NCBI RefSeq assembly: GCF_000226095.1
Contig: NC_016476.1
Coordinates: 2,666,001 to 2,730,000 of the forward strand
Direction: 5' to 3'
Length of the DNA stretch: 64,000 nucleotides
DNA from: Thermothelomyces thermophilus ATCC 42464
Lineage: Eukaryota > Ascomycota > Sordariomycetes > Sordariales > Chaetomiaceae
Part shown: positions 7,102 through 45,262 of the stretch, piece by piece
How positions within the stretch are numbered: the stretch's first letter is position 1
Layout: each line of letters begins with the position of its first letter
Position numbers and translations under genes: made by a program
The notes under the pieces: model-generated
Databases searched by the model: none
Told to the model about the DNA's origin: nothing
The model's input: only the letters and a program-made list of their open reading frames with translations

Positions 7102-8288
7102 ATGAGTGCTGCCGAGAAGGAACCAGAGAACTCAACCCCGGCCGGAAGCAAGGCCGCTCCGGAATCGGCGCCAGCAGCGGAAGGGACCGATGCTACTCCG
7201 AGTACCGCACCCGCTGCCAAAGCGCCGGAGGCCTCGGAGACTCCGGAGGCCCAGACGGCCCCGGCAGCCCCGGCCACCGCTACAGAAGCCGCCGCGTCCG
7301 CGCCCACGTCCGAGGAGAAGAAGGAATCCACCCCGTCGGAGACGCCCATTGGTCAGCTATGGGCCGCCGCAAGAGCAAGCGGGCACCCGGAGATCTGGGG
7401 AGTGACGCTTGCGGACCCCTCCAGCCACGTGCCCACCCGCATCGTCCTGCAGAAGTATCTCAACGCCAACGACGGCGATCTGGCCAAGGCCAAGGACCAG
7501 CTGACCAAGACCCTGGAATGGCGAGCCAAGACGAAACCCTTGGAGCTGGTCAAGAAGGTCTTCAGCAAGGCCAAGTTTGACGGACTGGGCTACGTCACCC
7601 GCTACCAGGAGGACGGGTCCGGCGAGCCCGAGGGCAAGGAGGTCTTCACGTGGAACATCTACGGAGGCGTCAAGTCCATCGAGGAAACCTTTGGGAAGCT
7701 CGACGAGTGAGTATTAATTATCCGCTCCGATCCGCAGCCCTCGACGGTGCCCGAGGTGGTGGGGTTGCCGGACAGGCGCGCCTCGCTGACAGTGCCCGCC
7801 GCCTTGCTTATCTGACTAATAATCATAATCATCCACCTAGGTTCCTGGAGTGGAGGGTCGCGTTGATGGAGCTGGCCCTGCAGGAGCTGGACATCGCGTC
7901 GGCGACCAAGGAGATCACGGCCGAGTACGACCCTTACAAGATCTTCCAGGTGCACGACTACAAGTCCATCAGCTTCCTGCGCCAGTCGCCTCAAGTCAAG
8001 ACGGCGAGCCAAGAGACCATCAAGGTGTTCGCCCAGAACTACCCGGAGCTGCTCAAGGAGAAGTTCTTCGTCAACGTGCCCGCCATCATGGGCTTCATCT
8101 ACACCTTCATGAAGCTCTTTGTCGCCCCCAAGACCATCAAGAAGTTCCACCCCATGTCCAACGGCCAGACCTTGGCGGCCGAGTTTGGAGACAGCAAGGT
8201 CTCCAAGCTGGGAGAGAGGCTGCCGCCTAACTATGGAGGCAAGGGAGCAAAGCTGGAGGAGCAGGGGAGAGGGCCATTGCTAGAGTGA
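7102..8288 (+). CDS. sfh5: Sec14-family phosphatidylinositol transfer protein Sfh5
   Basis: Exons 7102-7706 and 7841-8288 (intron GTGAGT..CCTAG, phase 2) give 350 residues. The first 90 residues are a low-complexity Ala/Pro/Glu tail, as is common in fungal Sfh5. A CRAL-TRIO N-terminal helical bundle follows (GQLWAAARASGHPEIWGV, then RIVLQKYLNANDGDLAKAK) and then the lipid-binding CRAL-TRIO lobe (EWRVALMELALQELD, VNVPAIMGFIYTFMK, FHPMSNG). Sfh5 proteins exchange phosphatidylinositol between membranes, mainly at the ER and plasma membrane, and some bind haem (known for the yeast protein). The intron splits the sequence between LDE and FLEWR exactly. No defect is seen. The gene stands alone, convergent with the HNH gene at 8560. 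Confidence 0.92.
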
Positions 8289-8559: not shown

Positions 8560-9530
8560 TTATAAAATCTCTACATGGTGGGCCAGCCGGTCGAATAGCT
8601 CAAATTCCATACGCTCAGCAGCCTTAGGGCCGGCCTGGATCTCTCCCATTATATCTGAGCCTGGCGGGAAATCGTGTTCATAAGCAGGTTCTCCTATCCC
8701 TCTCATGTTTGTAAGGACCGCCTGGCGGAAATGCCAGCGGAAGAGCGAGTCCGGCGGACGGCGGGGATCGTCGAGCAGGCGACTATCAAGGCTTTTCCCA
8801 GCCAATTGCTCACAGTCCTTTACAAAATAGATAATCTTATATCCGTTCTAAAAGTTTATTATGTTAGTAAGAGTAAAATATGTAAATAATAATGAGGAAA
8901 CTTACATCAGGATTAATAGAGAACGTATAGTTGTCGAATAGTTGATGTAGATCACTTCTGAGGAGGATACCATTCTGTACAGAGTTGATCTTGCCCCCTT
9001 GAGGTGGATCAATTGTAATCCAACGGCTATAGTTGTTCTCTAGCCATTGTTGTTCGTATGCCAGTGGGAAGATATGTGCGGCTTCAAATCCCCACCAAAA
9101 TCCATCTACAGCTCGAGCATTTTCGACTTTCGAAACAATACAACGACCGTCGCGAGCTTGGACTTGTTCTATAAATGATTGTACTCGAGTGCCCGAAGCA
9201 ATAGAGCATGCTCGTGTATATACGACTTCGTTATTAACCTGTAGTAATGTTAGAAAAGACTTAATAACTAGTAGATAAACTAACCTCGACCTCGTCTGCA
9301 ATAATAAAATAATCTCCGGGGAGAAGGGGCTGGTTATCTCGTAGGACTTCGTCTCCATGTTCGTTTTGGACGACATAATCACATGAGGTAATGAGAATGT
9401 CAAGCATTTGGCGAAAGTCCGTATTGGTAATGCCAGCTGTAAGGACTAAGCCACCTAAGGGAATGCGATCTTCATTGTCGTTCAGATCCCAGACGAACAC
9501 GTCACGGGAACGAGCTCGCTTGCCCGACAT
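8560..9530 (-). CDS. HNH endonuclease-domain protein
   Basis: Three exons, 9285-9530, 8906-9238 and 8560-8847, are all in phase 0 and encode 288 residues. The introns are GTTAGT..CTACAG and GTAAGT..TTTTAG, the second with a TACTAAC branch site. The core is a fungal HNH_2-type nuclease with a first His in AAHIFPLAYE, Asn in INSVQNGILLRSDLHQLFD, and a second His in the same block. An RDGRCIVSK segment takes the place of the usual zinc or strand element. The C-terminus (FRWHFRQAVLTNMRGIGEP, then EHDFPPGSD) is typical of the lineage-expanded fungal family. Such proteins are predicted metal-dependent DNases, but cellular roles are not established. I chose Met 9530 because the conserved text begins just after it. 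An in-frame Met at 9668 would add a poorly conserved leader. The gene is followed on the same strand by the three Cys-rich/SANT paralogues. Confidence 0.85.
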
Positions 9531-9701
9531 TTCTGCGGCGGGTGGATGGTCTGGGATGGTTACGGAGGAACGGTTAGATGGATGGTGTGGGAGATGGAGA
9601 TTTTCGGTTCGCTTGGCTTCGGGGCTGACTAATGGCGGGGTGGGAAGTGGGGCGCCAACAGGGCACATGTTGTGCTCGAACGCATCCCTCTTGTTTTCCT
9701 T

Positions 9702-10455
9702 TTAGCTCCGTTGGTTGAGCGTGGTGACTCGCCGCTCCAGAGACCACCGATTGCGCCAGGGGAAGTAGCCTTCGATTTGGTTGTAGCCCATCCCGCTGTT
9801 GCGCAGCAGAAGGAGGAGCTCGTCCTCCTCGGGGAGCCACCTCTCGGCCCTTCGCCGCGGGGCGCCGCGCCGGGCGTACCGGGGCGCCGGCGGGCGCCTG
9901 GCAGCGATGTTGGCCACGAGGTGCTGGATCCGCTGCTGGGTCGCGTAAGGCAGCGTGCTGATGTTGACGTCCTCGGTTGCGCGGATCCGCGGCCGCGCCT
10001 GCTGGTTCCCCGCGGCGGCGGCCGCCGCCCCGTCGCGCCGCTCGGGAACCAAGTTGACCGGCGCGCCCGAACGAGGGCCCGAGTCATCATCAAGGATATC
10101 GCGATCTGTAATTATTAAACGTTAGCGCTGTTCTCGCCGTCTGGAGGGCAAAATGGGGCAGAAAATTAAGCGCAGACTTACCGTCAAGAGTCAGATGAGG
10201 AGCGAGTCTCTGTATATCGCCCTCCCTCTGGGCGAGCCTCACCCGGAGGTACTCGCGCTCGAGATCGTACATGTACTCGTGGTTGAATGGGCATCTGGGC
10301 GTGGAGCAGGCCCATTCGTTGTGGTGTTCGCGGCGCAGGGGCAGCTTGTACGTCGTGAAGCCGTTGCAGTTCGCCGGGTCGTCGCAGGTATCGGTCTCGC
10401 TCGAGTCGGCGACCACGCCGCAGCCAGGACAGGTTCGACTGAGTCTGAGACACAT
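9702..10455 (-). CDS. Cys-rich/SANT-like protein A (tandem paralogue 1)
   Basis: Exons 10182-10455 and 9702-10105 (intron GTAAGT..TTACAG) encode 225 residues. The N-terminus has a Cys array (CPGCG, then CDDPANC, then WACSTPRCPF) that could bind zinc. A low-complexity linker rich in Ala and Arg follows. The C-terminus is a Myb/SANT-like helix set (ERWLPEEDELLLLLRNSG, then YNQIEGYFPWRNRWSLERRV). Architecture, first-intron position and phase (after codon base 1) match the two genes upstream. This one lacks the second intron found in them. I do not recognise a named family. A chromatin- or DNA-binding role is inferred only from the SANT-like part. It is the most divergent member. Confidence 0.8.
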
Positions 10456-10459
10456 GATG

Positions 10460-11310
10460 ATTTAGGGGAGAAGACTGAAAATATCAAGGTTGCTGCGTAG
10501 GTTTGAAGCAAAGGGGCGGACCAGACGCAAAACTGTTAATGGAAGCGTTGAACGAGGAAGGTGTGCAGCACAACAACTGAACTTGAGAAAGTCGAGGCGA
10601 TTAAACTGGCTGGCTGGCTTCCTCCAACCGGACCCGGCCGGGCCACATTTGAATTCGCACTGGTGAGCCTGAGAAGCCGTGTTTTTGCGAAGCCGTGGGC
10701 ATCATTACGAACAGGGGCACAGACACGGCTGGGGGTACGAGTCTACTCAATAAAGACTATGATAAAGTTTAACTATCTTCTCTTTATCTCCGAACCATGC
10801 ATGAAAGAAAAAGACTGCGCCCGAGTCCTGGGTACAATCAATAATAGAACAGAACTGGATTCTCAAGATGTAAAAAGATCTCCGGAAAAGGAAAGGGGGG
10901 GGGGGGGGCAGCGGCCTAACGGTTGTCATGGTTGCTTTGTCTTTGAAAAGACAGCCGGAGGTGGAGGAGTGGCAGAGCATCAACACACCGCTTGGGAATT
11001 TGAACCAACGAGAGATCTAGGATATAATTAGATAGTGACTTCATATAGTCCTGATCATGAAAGATCAAGAATGGGCCGTATGAATCACGTTTCCGTGACG
11101 AAGATAGTGAGAACACACTCGGATAGTCTAATTGACTCATCGCCCATGACATCAGATTATGGTTCTCCTAATTAGATCTTACATATACTCTCGCAATGTC
11201 ATGTTTGAAACCACCTCCTTCGGAGTAATTCGTAGTATTATTTGATGTACTCTACCACTCGCAGCTGCCAGCCAGGGTAGTCCAATGTCATACAACGCAA
11301 TTATCCCTTC
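10460..11310. other. spacer between tandem paralogues A and B
   Basis: No gene is seen. A ten-base G run lies near 10898. A 156-codon plus-strand frame (10561-11031) has no recognisable domain and poor codon character, and I treat it as chance. Confidence 0.5.
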
Positions 11311-11312
11311 GC

Positions 11313-12371
11313 TTATTTTTGAGCAGCTCCGCGTCCCTTTAATATCACCAGACGGGTTGCGCATGCATTGTGGGTGTGTCGAACCAAGTAGTGCTGCCAT
11401 CGGGAAGAACAGGTTTGGAACTTATTAATTAGCTCTTCTAATGCCCACGAGGAAAGGGAAGGAAGAAGACGGCAGAAGATAAAAGGAGGAAAAAAAAACA
11501 CCATTCAACACATCTTTCGTGATTAGGACACGAGTTAATACTGACCTCGGCAATTTGACGGTACGACACTTTGTGGGCGCGGAGGATTTCCAGGAGCTCC
11601 TCTTCTTCCTCGAGCCACTTCGACTTCTCCGGATGGGCGTCCGCATGGAGCACAATTCTCGAAAGCAGTTTGCCGATGCGGTCTCTCGTCGGGCTGTCAA
11701 GGCCGACCGGCATGCGACTGCCTCGGTGTCGTGGCCGGGCGGTGCCAAGGTTGTCTCGCCGAACCCCCTTTGCTCCATGGTGAAGGGTACCGAGCCCTCG
11801 GCCCAGGGGACGTGTCGTTGGATCCGCGGGTTCGGTCTTGACAGGGTAGCTGCCACCCTTACTGTTATTATGACGCCTCTTCACACACGGTTTCGCAGAT
11901 GGATAATAAATTGAAGGGCCGGGCTGTAGGTTGACAAGGCCCCCGGACTCCGCATTGGCAGGTTTTGTGTCCGTGTCTGCCTCGCAGTCCTCCATCGCCT
12001 CATCTCTCTCATCATCCGTGTCTTTGAAAGAGTTAATTAGTCTTTGGGGCGAGAAACGAGCAAAAGGCGGAATGATGAGTGATCGTTCACTTCGACATAC
12101 CGTACAGTTCGTCGTCGGCGTCGCTGCTCGTGTCGTTTCGCGCCTGATTCAATCGAATCTGCTTTATCTCCTTGGCATCGCGCTCCTGGCTATCCCTGCT
12201 GTAACCGCAGTCCGGAGTCGTGCAGTACCAGCCGGGATGGAAGTGCTGGGACTGCATGAGCCGCTCGACGAGGACGCGGTCCCAGCAGCTGGGACCATGC
12301 AACCGCAACGTGGTCGTCTGGCCCGAAGGAGCTCGGCAGGAAGGACAGAGGAAGACGATTCGGATGCACAT
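11313..12371 (-). CDS. Cys-rich/SANT-like protein B (tandem paralogue 2)
   Basis: Exons 12101-12371, 11546-12021 and 11313-11393 give 275 residues. Intron 1 (GTATGT..CAAAG) and intron 2 (GTCAGT..GGCAG) sit at the same places as in paralogue C. Met 12371 is preferred over 12383 because all three relatives begin Met-Cys. The N-terminus is CPSCRAPSG, then GPSCW, then GWYCTTPDCGYSRDSQ. A long acidic and polar linker follows. The C-terminal SANT-like unit is SKWLEEEEELLEILRAH, then SYRQIAE joined to HYLVRHTHNACATRLVIL. The second intron falls between helices 2 and 3 of this unit, and the chosen acceptor makes the text align with C. The exact acceptor is the least certain point. Function unknown; nuclear DNA or chromatin binding is inferred. 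Confidence 0.78.
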
Positions 12372-12399
12372 GGTAGAAAACAAGAAGATGACGGATGAT

Positions 12400-12938
12400 G
12401 GATGATGGATAATTATGATGATGATTGATGGTGGTGGTGGTGGTTGTGGTGGTGGAGGATGAGTTCAATGAGAGAGTCTTGGGGGCAGAGACAAGCGATG
12501 TAAGGAGTTGGGAGGTTGATGCCAGTCAGTCTTCGAAACTGAGTTTCCCACAAGAACTAGAGACTTAACAGACCGCGGAAGAAAAACGATGAGCAACGCG
12601 GTGATAGAACACGCGTCGAGATGGGATGGAAAAACAATCTCTATTCGGTGTCACACCCGGGCGCAGTTTCTTCGCGGCCGCGTCATAACTTATCCCTCGA
12701 GTAAACTAATTCGCAACCCCATGATAATTAATTACATACTCCTTCAAATCATAATAAACATCAAGTTCGAGGCTGTGCTCAACTCTTGTCTTGTTTGATC
12801 CAACAAAAGTCTCGATCATGCCATGGTGGTACCAACTCCCTAGGTAGGTGACCTTCACTCTCAATTTCCATCTTGTCCAGCCGATCACCGGCACCGCCCT
12901 TTCGTGGATCCCAATGTCTTCGGAGAGGAAGAGGGTCT
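12400..12938. other. spacer between paralogues B and C
   Basis: A trinucleotide run (ggt repeats near 12430-12455) lies just upstream of gene B, probably in its promoter or 5' leader. No gene is seen. Confidence 0.5.
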
Positions 12939-13913
12939 TCAGGCCATCTTTTCTGGCTGTGACTGGCGATTCTTGAGCCATACAAACCGGGAGCGGCACG
13001 CATTGACAGAATGACGAGGCAGGTACGACTGAAACGCGTAATTAATCGAATTATTTGAAGCTGTGGATCAGCTGCTGTTGCTTCTAGTAGATCAAGGCTT
13101 AATAGTTGAATTGTTGGAGGAAAGATGCACTTACGGCGACGCGGTGGTAGGACAACTCGCTTTCCCGGAGAATCCGCAGGAGCTCCTCCTCTTCGGGGTA
13201 CCACTTTTTGGTCTTGTCGTCGGCCTCATACGAGGCGATCACGTCGCGGAGCTCTCGGACTCTTGCCGCTGTCTTGGGGCTGAAGTGGGAATCGGTAGAG
13301 TCCGTGTCGACGGCGGACAGGGCCGGTTCATCGGCGATGGCTGCCACCAGCTCTTGTGTGGGCAGTTGGTGTGACAATGATGGCTGCGATCGGGGTGATG
13401 GCTGCGGCGAAGGGACCCGCGATAGGGGTGCCGCATTGTCCCTTACAGTGTTACATGTCAAAGACGCGTCGCAGGTCGCATTGGCCTCGCCCTCCGAGAC
13501 CTCTCCCTGGTTCTCTTCTTCCGCCGCGTGCCCAAGGGGCGCTGAAGCTTCAACTGGTTTGTTATGGCCGTCTAAACGGATCTTGCATGGTCAGTGACTC
13601 ACATCTTCTGATCGCACCTGCATTGCCCGGGCTCACCGTTGTTGTCCTCGATCGCCCCTTCGGCGCGAGGTGCTCTGCCCGCCCGGTTTGCCAGAAGAAT
13701 AGCATTTTCCTCGGCCTCGGCCATGCTTTGGCTTTTCTTGCTGTAGGCGCATTCTTCGGTGCTACAAAACCAATTCTCGAAATGTGTTGCTTTCATGTAC
13801 CGTTCCAGCTCGACAACATCGAGACAGATGCTCCCGTTATGGGTGCGTACGATGGCCGACTTGCCGCAGGGAGCCCTGCAAAAAGGGCAAATGTACCGGA
13901 TGACTAGGCACAT
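12939..13913 (-). CDS. Cys-rich/SANT-like protein C (tandem paralogue 3)
   Basis: Exons 13637-13913, 13135-13571 and 12939-13028 (introns GTGAGC..TTTAG and GTAAGT..TTTCAG) encode 267 residues. The N-terminal Cys array is CPFCRAPCG, then GSICLDVVELERYMKATHF, then NWFCSTEECAYSKKSQ, nearly superimposable on paralogue B. The linker is Ser/Pro-rich. The SANT-like C-terminus reads KKWYPEEEELLRILRESEL, then YHRVA, then SYLPRHSVNACRSRFVWLK. Intron positions and phases equal those of B, so the pair arose by tandem duplication. No defect is seen. The family is not known to me. Zinc binding and DNA or chromatin binding are inferences from the spacing of Cys and from the helix pattern. Confidence 0.8.
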
Positions 13914-13919
13914 CCTCTT

Positions 13920-14700
13920 GTTAATACTGTAAGGCGCAGGTGGGATATCCTACAACACTTGACATTTAATTATCGCAGATGGAGAAGGAGGGGCAAAAGT
14001 GCAGCGAAATCTAATTGTTGGCTGTGGAAAGCGATGGAGGTCACGCGTGGGAGTCGAAAAGCAGCATGAGGGAGAAGAACGGGCTCCAAGGTCGTGGGAA
14101 AATGGCACTGAGGTGTGTGAACCCGGCACTCAGGTGCGCAAACTTGTACATGTTCAGACCGAACAATGAACTGGTTCACGCTTCACCAGCTGAATTGGCA
14201 ACCGTACCTACGTAATACTTCTCTGTTCAATACCATCAACAGGTCATCACCATGGCTTATAGGAGCACCATACTCCTTCGAGATGCTTAGTAGCCCTATA
14301 GTGCTCGTTCTTTAAGGCCAGGGACACTTTTAACTACGTAGACATATCTAATGCTATAGTGAGCTAGTAATCAGACTTTTGCTCGTTGCCGACCTTCGCT
14401 ACCATTACGACAGTTCTATTTTTGTTTGAATTGGCTTACTCTTCTAGATATCTATCTACAGTTTAAAGGCGGCACTAAGGGGTACTTAACGACTATAGCT
14501 CTAGACTATAGTTTTCGGCTAAACTCGGGAGAGTATAGACTGTTTCGGCTATGACGTACTACCCCAAGTGTCCCCATACAAAGAGACAGATTTACCAACA
14601 GCTACGAAAAAGGGATGCTCACCGAGCAAGACACATCAATACCGATCACTAATAGGACGTCGGGTCACCAAAATCGTAAATGATCGAGGCAGCACGTTTC
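13920..14700. other. AT-rich intergenic, no gene seen
   Basis: The stretch is rich in tag/cta words, consistent with old mutated repeat DNA. No domain was recognised. Confidence 0.45.
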
Positions 14701-14706
14701 AAACCA

Positions 14707-15900
14707 TCATCTACATAACGTATCTCCTACCACTCGCGCTCTCGTGCTAGCCCGGCCCTTAAGGCGCGGGCCTTTTATCGGCCTCTTGGGATTCGGAGTT
14801 CCCCGACCTCTCTGCGATAGGTTTTTCCTATGTCTCTTCGGTTTTGGCACCCGTCTCTTCGGCTCCTGTATCGAAGGTACCGTCAGACTAACTTTGCGCT
14901 GCATCTCGTCGAACATCTTTTTTGTCTAGTCAAAGACATTGTCGTGCTTGAACCCCTTGGCATGGAACAGACGACGGAAAAGCCTACGAAGGTATAAATA
15001 GTCGGGCCTGTCATGGAAACCTAGGGACCGGGTATAGTCAATATATATAGCAAATTCTCTAGGGAGAAAGCCGTCAGAGAGTACTTCGCCTGATAGGCTC
15101 TCCTTCTTTTCCTTGATCTTTTTCTCCTTCTCGTCTGCTACGGCCTTTAGGCCTTGCCACGACAAAGAGCTGTAGGCGAAATATATAAAGATATATCTAA
15201 GGGACTCTAGGTCGTCCCCCTAAGACTGTTCTTCCCCGTGATTTATTTAGTAAACAAATAGATAGGATTGTAATTAGGTACCTACGGCGGCCATTGTGGT
15301 TATTAATGCTTGTATACCGTGTCGTACCGCCTAGTAGGAGACCCTCCACATTCTTGTAACGCTTAGTGTCGGAGAACTCCTTGGTAAGGCCAAAATCAAT
15401 AGTATAGAGGGTGTTTCCCTACTTGCCAATCCCTATCAGGAAGTTATCCGGCTTGATGTCACGATAGAGGAAGCCCTTTAAGTAGATATATTAGATTCGG
15501 GAGATGGCCTAGTCGGCGATAAGGAGGATAGTCTTAAGCGAAAACTTTCGGCCGCAATAGTTAAACAAATGCTCAAGCGACAGACCAAGCAGGTTATAGA
15601 CAAGCGTATAGTAATCGCATTCCTGCCCGAACCACCGTACTTATAGGATGCCGACCACCCCAGACAGCGCCTCGTATGTCTCCTTCTCGCTTCGGAGCAC
15701 CTCGGGGTTATCTCGAACGTGTGTAAGCTTTATAGCGACCTCCTCACCCAATTCGAGATCGGTTCCTAGCAGGTCAGCGATAGTCGGAGCAGCAAGGGAC
15801 AGCGGCATACCAAAATAAACGAGGCCGAAGCCTCCTGCGCCGATCCTGCGGTCAACACGGTACCTGTCGCCGATAAGAATGTCCTGGAGGGTATATGAGC
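14707..15900 (-). pseudogene. decayed casein kinase 1-like gene
   Basis: Casein kinase 1 text runs in order on the minus strand. It includes GDRYRVDRRIGAGGFGLVYF (ATP loop, near 15840), EEVAIKLTHV with the ATP-binding Lys, and [21 protein letters not shown]. The catalytic loop YRDIKPDNFLIGIGKQ and IDFGL are present, as is a degenerate GTRYTSIN activation segment near 15300. The end is LSWQGLKA, FAIYIDYTRSL and HDNVFDW (near 14935), followed by a basic tail. Several expected Gln or Trp codons are TAG or TAA, the signature of C-to-T or G-to-A change, and the frame shifts in the middle. CK1 is an essential Ser/Thr kinase in fungi, so an intact copy should exist elsewhere and this is a duplicated copy. 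RIP after duplication is the likely cause (inference). Confidence 0.8.
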
Positions 15901-15939
15901 AGTCTCTACCGTACAGTAGAGTAGTAGGAGACTTATACC

Positions 15940-16460
15940 TTCATTGTGAAATGGCAGCTGAAGCAACGAAGTGAAGGAAGCTGCTCGAGGCCGTATGCCA
16001 CCGTTGCATCAGCACGAAGTGCGCCATGGGCAAAAGCGGCGAGACGCAGAACAAGGCCCACCCCGCTAGAGCAGACGCGAATTCCCCGTACTACTCCCCG
16101 CCCAATTCTTATCTTTTGCTCTACAAACACAGACCAAGCGGATACATACATACAATACCTAGTGCCCTCCGTATATGGTTGTTTCGGCTTCCACCCGCGC
16201 CGTCTTTAGTCGATTACCCCGCAGCCTACGCCGTATCCCTGCTACACAGCGGCTAATGGTTAACTGATGTCTTCCCCGAGTGCGACACGCTCGAATGAGT
16301 TACGCGTTATCCCGCAGGCAACAACGCGTTCCGGCCCAATCATTCTGCTGCCGCGCACACCAACCCAACATGTCCTGTAGTGCCAGCTCAGTGATAGCTC
16401 TCGAACGCGACCTGAATATCCCCACGGATTTTCCCTCGATACGAACTTCCTGTAGTGGCA
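15940..16460. other. intergenic upstream of the PD-(D/E)XK-like gene
   Basis: No gene is seen. The stretch probably includes the promoter of the plus-strand gene at 16465. Overlapping frames on both strands are mirrors. Confidence 0.4.
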
Positions 16461-16464
16461 GCTT

Positions 16465-18095
16465 ATGGCGAGAGCACAACCTCGAAAGAGAGCCCGCGCA
16501 GACGACCTCTCGCAAGAGCACTGTCCGAACAAGAAGATCAAGTCGAGAGACAGGCTTCACGGGTCGTCGAACTTCCCGCCGGAATTCTGGGACAACCTGT
16601 CCAAGATCTGGCTCACCCCGCGCGCTCTGCGAGAACTCGACCGGCGGAACAGCACTCGGGCCCCAGAACCCGCGATGCCTGTAGTATATACCACCGATCT
16701 TGCCCGGTTTGCGAGACACGGCGGCCCAGATCTTCGCCATCTTTGGGGGGTACGTCTGTATTAAGCTGATCCGTAATTGACGTTGGCTAAGTGCCTTAGT
16801 ATCCCGAACCGAAGAGCGCCGTACGTACCATTTCTTGCAGCCGTTCCATAGCATCATCCAGCCAGCGAACAAAGTCGACGAAGTCTACAGAAGCAACAGA
16901 TGTGTCTTCGAGAACCAAGCCATCATCAGCATACGACAAGAACTTCGAGCAGCACCTTAATGACAACAATGTCTATCTACACGGTCGGAAGTCGAAGCCG
17001 AATAACAAAGTAGACCTGTACGAGTCAAGACTATCGCTTTCACCGTCGAAGTTCTCCGATAGCGCATTTGAACGCTTCCAGGACGAACACGATCATCTGG
17101 GTTCCGAAGGAGATGTTATGCGCAAAATAATTCCGGTCATAAGTGGCAGCACGAATATTCATAATAGTGGGGAAATGCTTTTCAACAATCTGGAATCGAT
17201 CACTGACGGCACTATGGGTGACGTCAAACCCGACTTCTATGATGGGGCTTATTTTGGTGACATCGATGCAGCGGTGAGAAATGACCTGAATAGTCTAATA
17301 ATACCTTCAAACACGAACGCAGCTAGGCGCCCAATAGCGCCGAATTTCTTTCTCGAGGCTAAAGCCCCATTGGGGCGGGCGGACGTCGCCAAACGGCAAG
17401 CGGGCCTTGACGGAGCCATCGGCGCCCGCGCGATGCACGCCCTGCAGAACTACGGCAAGGAGGAGCCCGCCTTTGACGGCAATGCGTACACCTACAGCTC
17501 GACCTACCACGCCGGCACGGGCACGCTCAAGCTGTACGCGCACCACGTCACGGCGCCGACCACGCCGGGCGGGCGGCCCGAGTACCACATGACTCAGGTT
17601 GATGGCTGGGATTTGACGGGAAACATCGACTGTTTTCGGCGAGGAGTGACCGCCTTCCGGAATGCGAGGGACTTGGCGAAAGAGCACCGCGACAGGTTCA
17701 TCCAGGCAGCTAATGCAAGAGCACGCCAAACCGACACGGAGGCGCTGTCTGAAGCAGAAATCACAGTCGCTGTGGCAGAGCAGTATGAAGACTCAACTGC
17801 TGACGAATCCGTGGACTGTGAAGACTATGTCGAATCACAAGCTGTCGGCACCGAGAACCACGCTACATCCCAGGACGTCGGCGAGGGGCTGACTCTTCCC
17901 GAGTACCTTCACGAAGAGGAGGAAGAACCCAGCCAGCAGCCTACGTTGCTTGGTGCTGAACCGGCCATGAGCTTTGCTACAAGCTTTACGTCGAGCTTTA
18001 CCGTACAGAGCCAAACCAGTTCGAAGCGGAACAGAGCTTCTAACAGTCCCCCGTCGAATTCCCGGCCGCGCAAGAAGCACGACCCGGCCAAGTAG
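16465..18095 (+). CDS. fungal PD-(D/E)XK-like protein (DUF7924-type)
   Basis: Exons 16465-16749 and 16800-18095, split by a 50-base intron (GTACGT..CCTTAG), encode 526 residues. The junction restores HLWG-YPEPKS. The N-terminus is basic (PRKRARADD, NKKIKSRDR), like a nuclear signal. It is followed by the family block FWDNLSKIWLTPRALRELDRR and DLARFARHGGPDLRHL. The second exon holds YDKNFEQHL, SEGDVMRKIIPVI, SITDGT, then VKPDFYDGA and NFFLEAKAPLG, and KRQAGLDGAIGARAMHALQ. The D of KPDFYDG with the ExK of FLEAKA has the shape of a PD-(D/E)XK nuclease site (inference). The assignment to DUF7924 is from memory. The C-terminal 150 residues are acidic and Ser-rich. The family is expanded in filamentous fungi and its role is unknown. 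No defect is seen. It lies beside a dead CK1 copy in accessory-looking DNA. Confidence 0.75.
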
Positions 18096-38741: not shown

Positions 38742-39155
38742 TGTCACGATTTGGCTGCATAAGGCGACCCGGCAAGGCGCACAGAACCAATCAGGAACCA
38801 CAAGACCTAAGGACCAATCAGGAAGTGATCGCAGTGATCGCACTTCGATCAAGACGAGCACTTGGGTAACGATCGCAGGATCGCAGCAGCGATCGCACGA
38901 TCAAGACTCAAGGGGGAAAGGACAAGGAAATTGTATATAGTCACTCGTTCTGGCGAACTCTGGGAGTTCACCAGTGGTAACAATCACAATCACAGTACTC
39001 ATACCAAGCATTGCTGATTACTGTGAGAGACAACTCTAAGTGTTGTTGTGAACCCTTTGGCTTCACCGAATCCCTCAGACGACCTGCCTGCTTGTCCCGC
39101 TTCACCCACCTCCGTCTGGACCCTTTCAGAAGCAGTCTGAGTTGGGTTCGTCACA
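38742..39155 (+). repeat. young gypsy 5' LTR
   Basis: It begins tgtcacgatttgg and ends gggttcgtcaca, and looks identical to 45840-46253. It has a run of gatcgca repeats near its middle. Confidence 0.94.
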
Positions 39156-39182
39156 CGTTGTTACCACTCCCTTTGTTCTGTC

Positions 39183-41444
39183 ATGGTTCAGAACGGAGGT
39201 GACTTCGACCTCGACATCGACATGGCTACCAACGTCACGGCCGAACAGCTGCTCGCTCAGCTTGGTCAACTCCAGCAGCGGATCCAGGAGTTGGACCAGA
39301 GAGACAAGGCTGCTCAAGCTCGAATCAAGGAACTCGAGAACCGCGAAAAGTACTCGCAGAAGTTGGTCAACGAAGCCTACGCCAAAATCGAAGCGCTCGA
39401 GACCGCCAAGGCGAGCCGCATCAAGATCGAACCACCTGGTAAATACGGAGGAACCAAGGAGGATCTCGCAGGATTCCTGACAAACCTCCGATCCTACTTC
39501 CGGCTCAATGACGACAAGTTTCCGGACGACAAAGCCAAAGTCCTCTACGCAGCCACGAGACTAGAGGGCAAGGCACTCAGATGGTTCGAGCCTACGTGGA
39601 ACGACTATCTCACGGAGGAAGACGAAGACGATCGAGACGCGTTTACACGGGCAGTCTTCCGATCTTACGACCGTTTCGAAGAAGAGCTTCGGAAAGTTTT
39701 TGGCGACAAAGACGAGAAGATTCATGCGCAAGAAAGACTCGCCAATCTCCGACAGACCAAGTCAGCAGCCTCCTACGCCGCACAGTTCAGACAGGACATG
39801 CTCAAGTCTCAGCTTAACGACGAGGCGTTGATGCAACTGTTCTACAACGGCTTGAAGGAAAAGGTCAAGGACGAGCTGTACAAGTACGATCGGCCTGAGA
39901 CTCTGGATGAATACATCGCGCAGGCCATCAGGATCGATGATCGACTCTACGCACGAGAGCAGCAGAAACGAGGTCGAATGAACGGAACCACGGTTAAGGC
40001 CAACGACAAGAAAAAGCGAGCGTACGTTAGTACCTCGTACGGGACGCACCCCGGAGCCATGGATGTGGACGCAGCGCAGAAGCAGGACCAGAAGAAGGCG
40101 ACCAAAGACAAGTCCAATGTTACCTGCTACAACTGCGGAAAGAAAGGGCATTACAAGCGAGAATGCCGGAGCCCGAAGAAAGAATGGAAGCCAGTCCCTG
40201 GAAAGGAAATTGCGGCCATCGACGAAACCACCAAGAACGTCACCGAAGTAGCAGCCACGAGCTACGAAGACAAGGACAGTGACACGGACAGTCTCGGACA
40301 CGACGGCAACGGTGAAGACGAACAAGCACCGTACTCCGAACTGGTCACTGTGGACCCAGAGACAGGTCTTGCCGAATGGGACATGGCAGGAGAGTATGCG
40401 CCGCCAATTTCGATTCTCCCAATCTTGAGGCAGTGGGGTTTCACAGTCACGCAGAGGCGGGATGGATCGTGGACAACCGACACCCAAGGAATCGAAAGAC
40501 CCGGACCCAATGCTCTATTCCTCCAGGAACGAATCGAATGGTACCGCAACGAAGTTTTCCGACTCAACACGGAACTGCGCGAACGGGATGGGCGCTTGAC
40601 TCGACTCGCCCAGCAGAGCGATGAGATGAAGGACGAAATGAGGGAACTCCGACGTATCGTGGAAACCATCAAAGGGGAACAGCCTGTGACATATGATGGG
40701 CCCGATAGCTACGCCGAGTACCTTGACGATCAGCAACTCAGCAACGATGTGCGGAACCCAGAATACCAGTTCATGCGCGCGAACCGCGGAAAAGATGAGC
40801 GTACGTGGGAAAGCTACTGGAAGAAACACTCCTATGTCAGCACTGGAGTACCTACGGTCCACGTACAATGGGAAGGATTCGGGAAAGAGTTCCAATACCT
40901 TCCAGGCGACGCCACGCGACTGCACCCTCGACACGAGGCACATGCGCAAGTGCCCTGGTTCCAGTGTGTGGCACACGAATGCCGATACCACTTCCGCGAC
41001 AAATTCGAAAACAATCACTGGCCGACCCGACAGGAAAACAGGGACGGAGGCTTGTGCCCTGTGGAATGGGTCTACGATGCAGGAAACAGAGCGGCCGAAT
41101 TGCTTTGGAAGATCGAAGCCCGCGATCTAGAAAGCATCACGATAGTTCCAAGACGAGCCTGGCCTAGGCACTGCGGAACGGGACGAGACACATGGGACTC
41201 GTGCTGGAGCAACGATTGCCTCTATCACGCGGACGAAAAGAAATTGCGAATTCGGGAGCTTCAGATGAAGCTATGGCACGCACGACGGAAAGCAGAACGG
41301 ACCCAATGGTGGGAAGCCGCAAGCACTCAATGGCTCACGGAAATGAGCACGATCGACGAAGCCGCTATCAGCCGAACAACCGAAGAGGTCAGCACTGACC
41401 TGGGAAACGGGTCAGGGCCCTTCGAGGGGCCCGGAAACCATTAA
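39183..41444 (+). CDS. gag of the young gypsy element
   Basis: A 753-residue frame starts 28 bases after the LTR. An N-terminal coiled coil (QLLAQLGQLQQRIQELDQRD) precedes a Ty3/gypsy capsid-like region (LRWFEPTWNDYL, then FEEELRKVFGD, then RLANLRQTKSAASYAAQF). A CCHC zinc knuckle follows near residues 314-327 (CYNCGKKGHYKREC). After the knuckle comes an unusual extension of about 420 residues. It holds an acidic stretch, a second coiled coil (near residues 460-500) and two C-x4-C-x2-H units (CVAHECRYH near 596, CWSNDCLYH near 674). Most gypsy gag proteins end soon after the knuckle. It would form the particle shell and bind RNA. The extension's role is unknown. Confidence 0.9.
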   Translation: MVQNGGDFDLDIDMATNVTAEQLLAQLGQLQQRIQELDQRDKAAQARIKELENREKYSQKLVNEAYAKIEALETAKASRIKIEPPGKYGGTKEDLAGFLTNLRSYFRLNDDKFPDDKAKVLYAATRLEGKALRWFEPTWNDYLTEEDEDDRDAFTRAVFRSYDRFEEELRKVFGDKDEKIHAQERLANLRQTKSAASYAAQFRQDMLKSQLNDEALMQLFYNGLKEKVKDELYKYDRPETLDEYIAQAIRIDDRLYAREQQKRGRMNGTTVKANDKKKRAYVSTSYGTHPGAMDVDAAQKQDQKKATKDKSNVTCYNCGKKGHYKRECRSPKKEWKPVPGKEIAAIDETTKNVTEVAATSYEDKDSDTDSLGHDGNGEDEQAPYSELVTVDPETGLAEWDMAGEYAPPISILPILRQWGFTVTQRRDGSWTTDTQGIERPGPNALFLQERIEWYRNEVFRLNTELRERDGRLTRLAQQSDEMKDEMRELRRIVETIKGEQPVTYDGPDSYAEYLDDQQLSNDVRNPEYQFMRANRGKDERTWESYWKKHSYVSTGVPTVHVQWEGFGKEFQYLPGDATRLHPRHEAHAQVPWFQCVAHECRYHFRDKFENNHWPTRQENRDGGLCPVEWVYDAGNRAAELLWKIEARDLESITIVPRRAWPRHCGTGRDTWDSCWSNDCLYHADEKKLRIRELQMKLWHARRKAERTQWWEAASTQWLTEMSTIDEAAISRTTEEVSTDLGNGSGPFEGPGNH

Positions 41445-41461
41445 CGCCCGCGCAGCGGCGA

Positions 41462-44400
41462 GTGGTAGCGCAGTACAGGAGGAACTGGCGCAAGAGACCA
41501 CTATACCGAGACCTCCCGGCAGAAACATGGGAAATCGCCGCAATCTTTGGACGACGGCGGCAAGACAAGCGGCTGTGGATAACAGCACAGTGGAAACAGC
41601 ACGAAATGCTCGCACTAGTGGACAGTGGAGCAGAGATGAATCTGATTTCGCCGACACTTGTGAATCAGCTGCGGATACCCTGGAGAATGAAGCGGAAGCA
41701 TGGCATAGTCAAAGGGCCATTTCCGACGCAATGGGTACGCAGGGAGACCGAACCGATCGACATCACTGTGGCAGGGAAAACCACAGCAGTCGTATTCAGC
41801 ATCGTGGACATGGGCGACGACAAAGACATGATATTGGGATTACCATGGCATGAAGATTACGACCCGGACATCAGCTGGAAGAATGGTGGCCACCTGCGAC
41901 CCCGAATGGAGTCGTATTCGACCAGCGAGATGGGGAGCGCGCAAGGATCGCGAGCGGACGATGCTCAGAGAAAGGCATGTCCTACGGATCCACCGCAAGA
42001 GACGGACAGTGGCAGGCAGACCACTACGGACTCTGGAAGAAGCGGCATAACGATACCGACGTTGCGACAGGAGGAACGAGCTGAATCGCCGATAGCTGTT
42101 CTCTCCGTTGACGAATGCGGAGCACTGCAATGGGAGCAGTGGGTTGAGACAGGAGAAATCGCCAGTATCGCCATGGACGGAACCAAGTTCGCATACTACC
42201 AGAAAACCGAGAGACGAGACAAGACTGGGGAAGTACCGAAGGAATACGAAGGACACCCAGCATTCGAACCGAAGCATCTGGAAGGATTACCAGAACACGG
42301 CCCATGGGATCACGAGATCAAGCTCAAGGAAGGAGCACGACTGAAGTTCTTCAAGATTTACCACACGAGCCAGACACAGAACGAAGAACTTAAGCGATAT
42401 TTGGAGGAGAACCTTCGAAGAGGACATATCCGCCCGTCGACATCGCCAGCAGGCTACCCAATCCTGTTTGTGCCCAAGAAAGACGGAAAGCTACGGTTAT
42501 GCGTCGACTATCGGCAACTCAACGAACAGACCGTGAAAAATCGATACCCGTTACCGCTGATCTCACGGCTCCGAGATCAGTTGGCAGGAGCCCAATATTT
42601 CACGCGTCTTGACTTGCCATCGGCCTACAACCACATACGGATCAAAGAAGGCGACGAGTGGAAAACGGCCTTTAGGACACCTTATGGCCACTACGAGTAC
42701 CTCGTCATGCCATTTGGACTTACGAACGCGCCGGCAACGTTCCAAGCCCTGATTGATCAAGCTATCCGACCCTTTCTCGACAAATTTGCGGTATGTTATC
42801 TCGACGATATACTCATCTTCTCCAAGACGATGGACGAACACCGGAAGCACGTAAAAGCAGTGCTGGACGCGCTGCACGCGTACAAGCTATCAGTCAACAA
42901 GGGAAAGAGCGAATTCCACGTCAGGAAAACGGTGTTTCTGGGATACGAGATATCCCCAGGACAAATCCGGATGGAACCTTCAAAGGTTGAAGCTATCAAG
43001 AATTGGCCACGACCGACGTCAGTCACGGAAGTACGAAGTTTCATCGGATTTGCGAATTTCTACCGAATGTTCATCAGGAACTTTGGAGCGATCGCGCGAC
43101 CATTACACGAACTTACCAAGAAGGGCGCTGAGTTCCAATGGGAAGAGCGACATGAGCAAGCATTCACGCAGATCCGGAATGCCATTACCGAAGATCCGGT
43201 ACTGGTACTGCCAGACCCCAAGAAGCCATTCGAGGTAGAAACGGACGCTTCAGACTACGCCATCGGAGGACAGTTGGGACAACGAGACAAACAAGGGAAG
43301 CTACATCCTGTAGCCTTCTTTTCAAAGAAGCTCGACGGACCACGTCTCAACTATCCAATCCACGACAAGGAACTACTTGCGATTGTCGAAGCTTTCAAGG
43401 AATGGCGACCATACCTCAGCGGCACGATTGAACCGGTACAAGTATATACGGATCACAAGAATTTGCGATACTTCACGACGACGAAGGAACTCAACGGACG
43501 ACAAATACGATGGGCAGAATTCCTCGCGGAATTCAACTTTGAGATCCGCTACAAGAAGGGCAAAGAGAACGCACGAGCGGACATCTTAAGTCGACGAACG
43601 GATCACACGGAAGGACGAACGGGAACGACACCACCGTTGTTCAAGGAACGGACAGACGGAACGCTGCATCACGAGACGCAGACACCCGTGGAAGATGATC
43701 CACTTGACTCGTTCCTCGAATGCTGCGCAATCTTTCGAGAAGAAAGGATCAACGAGGCACAGTATCAAGCAGCACCCGGACCAGTGGTACCTGACGGAGT
43801 AGAAGAGAAAGATGGGAAACTCTGGTACCGAGGCAAAGCGTACATCCACGACAAAGGTCAACAGCTGCGGATGATTCGAGAACTCCACGAGTCGAAACTC
43901 GGAGGACACAAAGGAGTTACGAAGACTGTCGCACAAGTCAAGAAACACTACGACTTTCCACAGTTGACGACACGAGTTAAGGAAGTCGTACGGAACTGCG
44001 ACATCTGCAATCGGAGCAAAACGGCACGACACAAGCCGTACGGGCTACTTCAGCCACTACCAACAGCTGACAAACCATGGAGTTCAGTTACGATGGACTT
44101 CATTACGAAGCTGCCAGAATCCAAGGACACGGCCACAGGAGTGACCTACGACAGTATTCTTACTGTAGTAGATCGCCTGACTAAGTGGGCATACTTCTTT
44201 CCCTACAAGGAGTCCTGGACAGCGGAACAGTTGGCAGACGTGATCTATCGGCAAGTTGCATCAGTGCATGCTTGGCCGCAAGAATGGATCACCGACAGAG
44301 ACACCAAGTTCGCATCGAAGTTCTGGCAAGCGTTAATGCAACGATTGGGCGTTAACAGCAAGCTGTCAACGGCATATCACCCACAGACTGACGGACAAAC

Positions 44401-45262
44401 GGAGCGACTAAACCAAGTTGTTGAGCAGTACCTCCGCTCTTACGTCAACTACCAGCAAAACGACTGGGTCATGCTGTTACCAACAGCACAACTCGCCTAC
44501 AACACGACGCCGACAGAAACGACCAAAGTCACACCGTTCTTCGCGAACTACGGATATGAAGCAGACCTTAGGCAAGGACCAGAGGTCACAGTGCCAAGAG
44601 CAGCAGTCAAAGCAGAACAGATGCACGCACTGCACGAGAAGCTCAAGAAGGAACTCGAGTTTGTCAAGACCAGAATGAAGAACTACTACGACAAACACAG
44701 GCTCGAGGGACCTCGCCTAGAGAGGGGAGATAAAGTCTACCTGATCGCACGAAACTTGCGAACCAAACGACCAAGCACGAAGCTGGACTTCAAGAAGGTC
44801 GGACCCTTCGTTATCAAAGAACGAATTTCGACATCCAACTACCGACTATCGTTACCGTCATCTATGCGACTACGGACGGATGTTTTTCATATTTCACTTC
44901 TCGAACCAGCACCAAAGAACGCCAAGGTTGCCACGCACATCGAAGCAGAGGACGAAGAGGAAGAATGGGACGTCGAAGAAATTCTGGATTCACGCATCAT
45001 CAACGGAGAACTGCAGTACCTGGTCAAATGGCTTGATTTTGGGCCAGAAGACAACTCATGGGAACCAGTTAAGAACCTGAGTTGCCCCGAGAAACTTCAG
45101 CAGTTCCACCAGAGGAACCCTGACCGACCGAAAGCGACGAACCCGAAACCAACCCGAAATCGGCCAGCAAGGACGGATCCAAAGGAACTTCAGGATACAC
45201 GGCATCCCAAAGCTGTCCGAAATCGGCGGACAGGCGAGATGGGGTCGAAGAAGACGCAGTAA
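41462..45262 (+). CDS. pol polyprotein of the young gypsy element (chromovirus)
   Basis: An open frame of about 1266 residues lies directly after gag in another frame. The family is known to reach pol by frameshifting or reinitiation. Domains in order are aspartic protease (LVDSGAE near residue 53), reverse transcriptase (YLDDILIFS near 445) and RNase H (ETDASDYAIGG near 593). The integrase zinc region is HESKLGGHKG..CDICNRSK near 808-850, and the integrase core is MDFITKLP and ITDRDTKF near 880-945. A chromodomain closes it (WDVEEILDSRIINGELQYLV, then WLDFGPEDNSWEPV, near 1165-1215). Chromodomains direct chromovirus insertion toward modified chromatin (known for the group). The position before gag's stop and pol's first usable start is not resolved here. 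Confidence 0.92.
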   Translation: MVAQYRRNWRKRPLYRDLPAETWEIAAIFGRRRQDKRLWITAQWKQHEMLALVDSGAEMNLISPTLVNQLRIPWRMKRKHGIVKGPFPTQWVRRETEPIDITVAGKTTAVVFSIVDMGDDKDMILGLPWHEDYDPDISWKNGGHLRPRMESYSTSEMGSAQGSRADDAQRKACPTDPPQETDSGRQTTTDSGRSGITIPTLRQEERAESPIAVLSVDECGALQWEQWVETGEIASIAMDGTKFAYYQKTERRDKTGEVPKEYEGHPAFEPKHLEGLPEHGPWDHEIKLKEGARLKFFKIYHTSQTQNEELKRYLEENLRRGHIRPSTSPAGYPILFVPKKDGKLRLCVDYRQLNEQTVKNRYPLPLISRLRDQLAGAQYFTRLDLPSAYNHIRIKEGDEWKTAFRTPYGHYEYLVMPFGLTNAPATFQALIDQAIRPFLDKFAVCYLDDILIFSKTMDEHRKHVKAVLDALHAYKLSVNKGKSEFHVRKTVFLGYEISPGQIRMEPSKVEAIKNWPRPTSVTEVRSFIGFANFYRMFIRNFGAIARPLHELTKKGAEFQWEERHEQAFTQIRNAITEDPVLVLPDPKKPFEVETDASDYAIGGQLGQRDKQGKLHPVAFFSKKLDGPRLNYPIHDKELLAIVEAFKEWRPYLSGTIEPVQVYTDHKNLRYFTTTKELNGRQIRWAEFLAEFNFEIRYKKGKENARADILSRRTDHTEGRTGTTPPLFKERTDGTLHHETQTPVEDDPLDSFLECCAIFREERINEAQYQAAPGPVVPDGVEEKDGKLWYRGKAYIHDKGQQLRMIRELHESKLGGHKGVTKTVAQVKKHYDFPQLTTRVKEVVRNCDICNRSKTARHKPYGLLQPLPTADKPWSSVTMDFITKLPESKDTATGVTYDSILTVVDRLTKWAYFFPYKESWTAEQLADVIYRQVASVHAWPQEWITDRDTKFASKFWQALMQRLGVNSKLSTAYHPQTDGQTERLNQVVEQYLRSYVNYQQNDWVMLLPTAQLAYNTTPTETTKVTPFFANYGYEADLRQGPEVTVPRAAVKAEQMHALHEKLKKELEFVKTRMKNYYDKHRLEGPRLERGDKVYLIARNLRTKRPSTKLDFKKVGPFVIKERISTSNYRLSLPSSMRLRTDVFHISLLEPAPKNAKVATHIEAEDEEEEWDVEEILDSRIINGELQYLVKWLDFGPEDNSWEPVKNLSCPEKLQQFHQRNPDRPKATNPKPTRNRPARTDPKELQDTRHPKAVRNRRTGEMGSKKTQ

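Follow-up and report, generated by a model that had tools for sequence, protein, structure and literature searches.

A tandem gene triplet combining a Cys-rich N-terminal domain with a SANT/Myb-like C-terminus in Thermothelomyces thermophilus

Gene models and introns

Three co-oriented genes, A, B and C, lie on the minus strand at 9702–13913 of the window (the whole 64,000-nucleotide stretch of DNA analysed, positions 2,666,001–2,730,000 of contig C5, in a genome of 38,744,216 bases on 7 contigs); the coordinates and orientation given in the initial annotation are right. The order along the minus strand is C, then B, then A: gene C begins with its ATG at position 13913, and gene A ends with its stop at position 9702.

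Gene C (12939..13913, minus strand; 267 aa) has exons at 13913–13637, 13571–13135 and 13028–12939, the end coordinate being derived from the 804-nt CDS. The whole codons of its exon 1 (13638..13913) encode the Cys-rich N-terminal domain (C2, C9, C12, C16, C30, C50, C55) and the helix after it. Intron 1 (13572..13636; 65 nt) is in phase 1, and intron 2 (13029..13134; 106 nt, phase 0) falls within the SANT domain. The model of this gene is 1–2 residues short in the shuffle tests, the codon-GC/RIP work, the three-sequence BLAST and the genome-Myb-profile test. Gene B (11313..12371, minus strand; 275 aa) has exons at 12371–12101, 12021–11546 and 11393–11313. Two of its predicted splice sites are non-textbook: the acceptor of intron 1 (12022..12100; 79 nt, phase 1) reads AAAG, and the donor of intron 2 (11394..11545; 152 nt, phase 0, within the SANT domain) reads GTCAGT. 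Gene A (9702..10455, minus strand; 225 aa) has exons at 10455–10182 and 10105–9702, separated by a phase-1 intron of 76 nt (10106..10181); its SANT domain is free of introns, including at the position of intron 2 in B and C.

GC content at codon positions 1/2/3 is 0.66/0.52/0.82 in gene A, 0.62/0.48/0.66 in gene B and 0.60/0.48/0.67 in gene C. Intron GC is 0.39–0.46 in four of the five introns and 0.54 in intron 1 of gene C. RIP indices are low in the three genes themselves.

The first intron occupies the same place and phase in all three genes, as had been claimed: phase 1, after codon 91, 90 and 92 in A, B and C, respectively. The split codon is Asp in all three predicted gene models. In the program alignment, the three Asp residues fall outside one common column, because the region around intron 1 is poorly conserved. 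The second intron had been described as shared by two genes. Its phase (0) and its position between SANT helices 2 and 3 are indeed common to B and C, but it lies one codon later in B than in C (after IAE and after VA, respectively), so “shared” is nearly, not exactly, right.

A similar intron probably exists outside the triplet. The Q-rich Myb-like frame at locus L047 (contig C3, ~363.4 kb; 17.4 bits, below the Pfam cut-off) reaches GTAAGC right after IAK and picks up again as TFPQRTEGSVKKHW past an AG (by eye). SANT helices 2 and 3 of this frame are thus probably separated by a phase-0 intron, one that matches intron 2 of gene B in codon and phase (IAK and IAE; by eye) and links the SANT exon to a broader fungal group.

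Domain composition of the three proteins

All three proteins start with Met-Cys, a feature common in ascomycetes, where many uncharacterised proteins begin in this way and carry a Cys array. The N-terminal array reported earlier, C-x2-C...C...W-x-C-x4-C, is present in 3/3 proteins, with C-P-x-C as the first pair. The pattern, defined after inspection of the proteins, occurs in 3 of 60,000 composition shuffles of the first 80 residues (20,000 per protein). Thirteen of the 77 N-terminal alignment columns are invariant: M1, C2, C9, P10, C12, C30, H44, W48, C50, T52, C55, E68 and L74 (gene C numbering). A zinc site in this domain is likely, since four Cys are arranged as C-P-x-C and C-x4-C. The AlphaFold2 model of the domain, built from just three sequences and with zinc absent, has strands at 2–8, 15–23 and 33–39, then a 21-residue helix at 59–79; its mean pLDDT is 80.5 and its pTM a modest 0.58.

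The domain is named by no library searched (Pfam, PDB sequences, Foldseek, NCBIfam and PADLOC), in line with the initial annotation, which knew of no named family of this architecture. In Pfam, the only hit is zf-Vps39_C in C (E 0.37, under the cut-off); the best PDB sequence match is Nanos (E 1.3), not significant. Foldseek comparison of the model with PDB gives nothing significant either (best E 1.5 in 30 matches), and against viral models the best E is 0.5 in the 50 of 68 matches listed. Across Pfam, PDB sequences and Foldseek, the domain thus has no significant counterpart among curated zinc domains or solved zinc folds. In the bacterial/archaeal libraries, NCBIfam returns a chance-level match alone (E 3.8, one of the three members) and PADLOC returns none.

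A variable linker, also noted before, separates the Cys array from the C-terminal part in A, B and C. Ahead of the SANT domain, all three proteins carry the motif T-x2-R-[I/V]-x2-L-x3-I, at a distance of 34 (A), 24 (B) and 23 (C) residues on the N-terminal side of the SANT tryptophan. It was noticed by eye, defined after the fact and then found in 3 of 60,000 linker shuffles. AlphaFold2 predicts it to be helical in the gene A product. MAFFT leaves the motif unaligned when given the C-terminal parts, and the motif occurs in none of the 28 Myb loci L022–L049 (six frames).

The C-terminal SANT/Myb-like domain, one per protein, is divergent, and its assignment is borne out by profile similarity to PDB entries and to the genome's own Myb domains. 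The cut-off of Pfam PF00249/PF13921 is not reached: B and C score 13.5–15.7 bits versus 22.9–24.4, and A has no match. A profile of the three C-termini finds Trichomonas MYB21 (3osf, E 7.8e-5) and c-Myb (1guu, E 0.0031) in PDB, and a designed protein at E 0.0036, on par with c-Myb. A genome Myb profile was built from 13 author-selected members of the genome's 28 Myb matches, all above the Pfam cut-off. Against it, C, A and B rank 1–3 of 903 sequences (22.2, 20.8 and 10.9 bits, B being the weakest), and the best of 900 shuffled proteins scores 7.3 bits.

The AlphaFold2 model of gene A exon 2 places three helices at the SANT positions (block pLDDT 85–92; 75 in the final three residues), and its first 50 residues are of low confidence (block pLDDT 46–62). 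pTM is modest in the AlphaFold2 models (0.58 and 0.53). A Foldseek search with the exon 2 model, low-confidence residues included, gives a best E of 1.8, with no Myb/SANT structure among its 10 matches. Within the domain, the first helix is acidic (W-x-x-E-E-[D/E]-E-L-L), Tyr stands in place of the second Myb tryptophan in A, B and C, and gene B has one additional residue between helices 2 and 3. Several Arg, His and Lys residues are kept in the third-helix region of all three proteins (by eye).

Paralogy and copies in the genome

Homology, the common first intron and the Cys array support the earlier description of the genes as a triplet of tandem paralogues, with a Cys-rich domain at the N-terminus and a SANT/Myb-like C-terminus. 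With exon 1 as query against the whole genome, B and C find each other at E 4.5e-15 and 8.3e-15, B finds A at 1.4e-4 and C finds A at 0.0076. With whole proteins as queries, the N-termini of A and B match reciprocally at E 0.0024 and A finds the N-terminus of C at 0.066. By score, the kinship of A is real but weak, and it therefore leans on the intron and the Cys array. Pairwise BLAST in the Myb-profile test and the three-sequence comparison used a tiny database and no composition correction, so its E-values are not genome-wide. N-terminal exon identity is 43% between B and C and 25% between A and either, values that suggest either old duplications or fast divergence. Judged from sequence, A, B and C as deeply diverged tandem paralogues is a supported conclusion.

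The SANT domain of A might have an origin separate from that of B and C. As a genome query, A lists Myb domains on contigs C7 (E 0.0069) and C3 (0.077), and the SANT domain of B or C is absent from the list; C as query, however, does find the SANT domain of A (E 0.0033), with the C7 SANT at 1.04. The two matches elsewhere in the genome, at 2,747 kb of contig C7 and 784 kb of contig C3, are to SANT domains, in frames (184 and 341 aa) with no such Cys array (by eye).

Genome-wide, the N-terminal domain is found solely in A, B and C (queries A, B, C and exon 1 of B and C; to E 10), a copy count that is a lower bound, as these searches score first-look candidates only. In a viral contig collection, the N-terminal profile gives 62 pattern matches and the SANT profile 132, with 0 confirmed; in a prokaryotic genome contig collection, the whole profile gives 112 pattern matches, again with 0 confirmed. 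Absence from these collections says little, as they contain viruses and prokaryotes. No publication on a Cys-SANT family was found among the papers listed, going by titles and abstract openings.

Proposed function and genomic neighbourhood

Three known systems resemble the triplet in part. Fungal single-repeat Myb/SANT proteins (PF00249 Myb_DNA-binding and PF13921 Myb_DNA-bind_6) have in common with it a C-terminal domain whose first helix is acidic. Locally, the Myb frame at L027 is similar to A (41% over 34 residues) and to C (36% over 42), the string NAC-x-[S/T/K]-R of Myb loci L033/L034 is present in B and C, and L047 has the intron position described above. The triplet differs from them in its Cys-rich N-terminal module, its shared pre-SANT helix, the single SANT domain seen per protein and its scores below the Pfam cut-off. 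The Ada2-type combination of a ZZ zinc finger and SANT likewise places a zinc module (putative here) before a SANT domain in one protein. In the ZZ finger, Cys-x2-Cys pairs are more numerous, the end is His-x-His and SANT lies close by, whereas the triplet, set apart here by description, has C-x2-C, C and C-x4-C, followed by more than 100 residues before SANT; Pfam ZZ has no match in A, B or C. Similarity to c-Myb and Trichomonas MYB21 extends over ~41 columns of the SANT profile. Those proteins have two or three repeats, in contrast to the one repeat seen here, for which DNA binding is predicted.

The proteins are, with slightly better than even confidence, small nuclear regulators that combine a zinc module with a single DNA/chromatin-binding SANT domain; zinc binding, nuclear location, DNA binding and regulation are all deduced properties in this proposal. 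The predicted order is a zinc module and a helix after it, then the variable linker, the short, conserved pre-SANT helix and finally a single Myb/SANT-like domain whose third helix is basic. C-P-x-C and C-x4-C would supply the likely four zinc ligands, and C2, C30 and H44 are candidate additional ones. DNA or chromatin is the most probable target of the SANT domain, and the zinc module most probably binds partner proteins or keeps a dimer together; combined, these two roles would make the proteins regulators of transcription or chromatin.

A broader proposal is put forward tentatively and is doubtful at present: the N-terminal Cys array might be a new zinc-binding fold whose combination with the pre-SANT helix and a single SANT domain marks out an unnamed family of fungal regulators, of chromatin or transcription, grown by local duplication. 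No Pfam, NCBIfam or PADLOC model matches the Cys-SANT build above cut-off or at a significant E-value. “Unnamed” is meant relative to Pfam, NCBIfam, PADLOC, PDB and Foldseek, fungal protein databases being outside the comparison.

Certain SANT domains bind histone tails instead of DNA. The main rival to the nuclear DNA/chromatin-binding reading is a chromatin-complex scaffold, in which the SANT-like domain no longer binds DNA and serves, together with the zinc module, for protein contacts only. The divergence of the domain, with Pfam scores below cut-off, the Tyr that replaces the second Myb tryptophan and the extra residue in B are all consistent with such a role, but the Arg, His and Lys residues retained in the third-helix region argue against it, and it is considered rather unlikely. 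That one or more of the genes are decaying pseudogenes is improbable: gene A is the most divergent and gene B has its two atypical splice sites, yet all three models are open over their full length and keep the conserved Cys, Trp and intron sites, their codon-position GC is gene-like and their RIP indices are low.

A further alternative concerns the gene next to the triplet (8560..9530, minus strand; ATG and introns placed by eye, with an earlier in-frame ATG at 9668), which encodes DUF7881 (E 1.5e-22) and HNH_2 (E 3.9e-17) by Pfam and is treated as a neighbour, with no claim of family membership. The initial annotation had taken tandem expansion beside this HNH nuclease to suggest a fast-evolving accessory system. 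Spelled out, the triplet and the HNH gene would form one system, such as genome defence or non-self recognition, in which the Cys-SANT proteins would read DNA and the HNH protein would be the nuclease. Both lie on the same strand, the HNH ATG following 171 bp beyond the stop of gene A, and both a decayed kinase-like stretch and AT-rich DNA with RIP marks are present in the window. However, the genome has HNH_2 matches at 8 sites, of which only this one, the sole family locus found, lies near the triplet family; at the seven others the family is absent in genome searches that give a lower bound. With adjacency as the only link, the suggestion is unsupported, no evidence points to a defence or other specialised system, and a joint system is highly improbable.

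Should the preferred reading of small zinc-module and SANT regulators be true, three genes that lack a clear annotation in Pfam would gain a defined domain architecture, in a fungus that serves as a source of enzymes, and a candidate zinc module would be open to cloning and testing. The finding has no bearing on a long-standing question.

Several other features of the window were recorded. A Starship connection was considered and rejected: the five DUF3435 matches all lie on contig C6, with none on the window's contig C5. The stretch at 14600–16000, upstream of gene C, is weakly RIP-marked (TpA/ApT 1.31, substrate index 0.78) and has partial DNA copies at five other genome places, the longest of which spans 407 bases with 72% identity. 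It contains minus-strand frame remnants named kinase-like by eye; three frames tested have no Pfam match. At 39141–45262 (plus strand), two long overlapping frames of 767 and 1287 aa resemble, by eye, the gag (including a CCHC knuckle) and pol of a Ty3/gypsy-like LTR retrotransposon, and RIP-marked AT-rich DNA lies at 30–38 kb and 46–52 kb. A 431-aa open frame at 16800–18095 (plus strand) matches Pfam DUF7924 just at the cut-off (E 3.8e-6, 27.1 bits), and a frame at 7581–8288 (plus strand) carries a CRAL/TRIO lipid-binding domain (E 6.2e-15).
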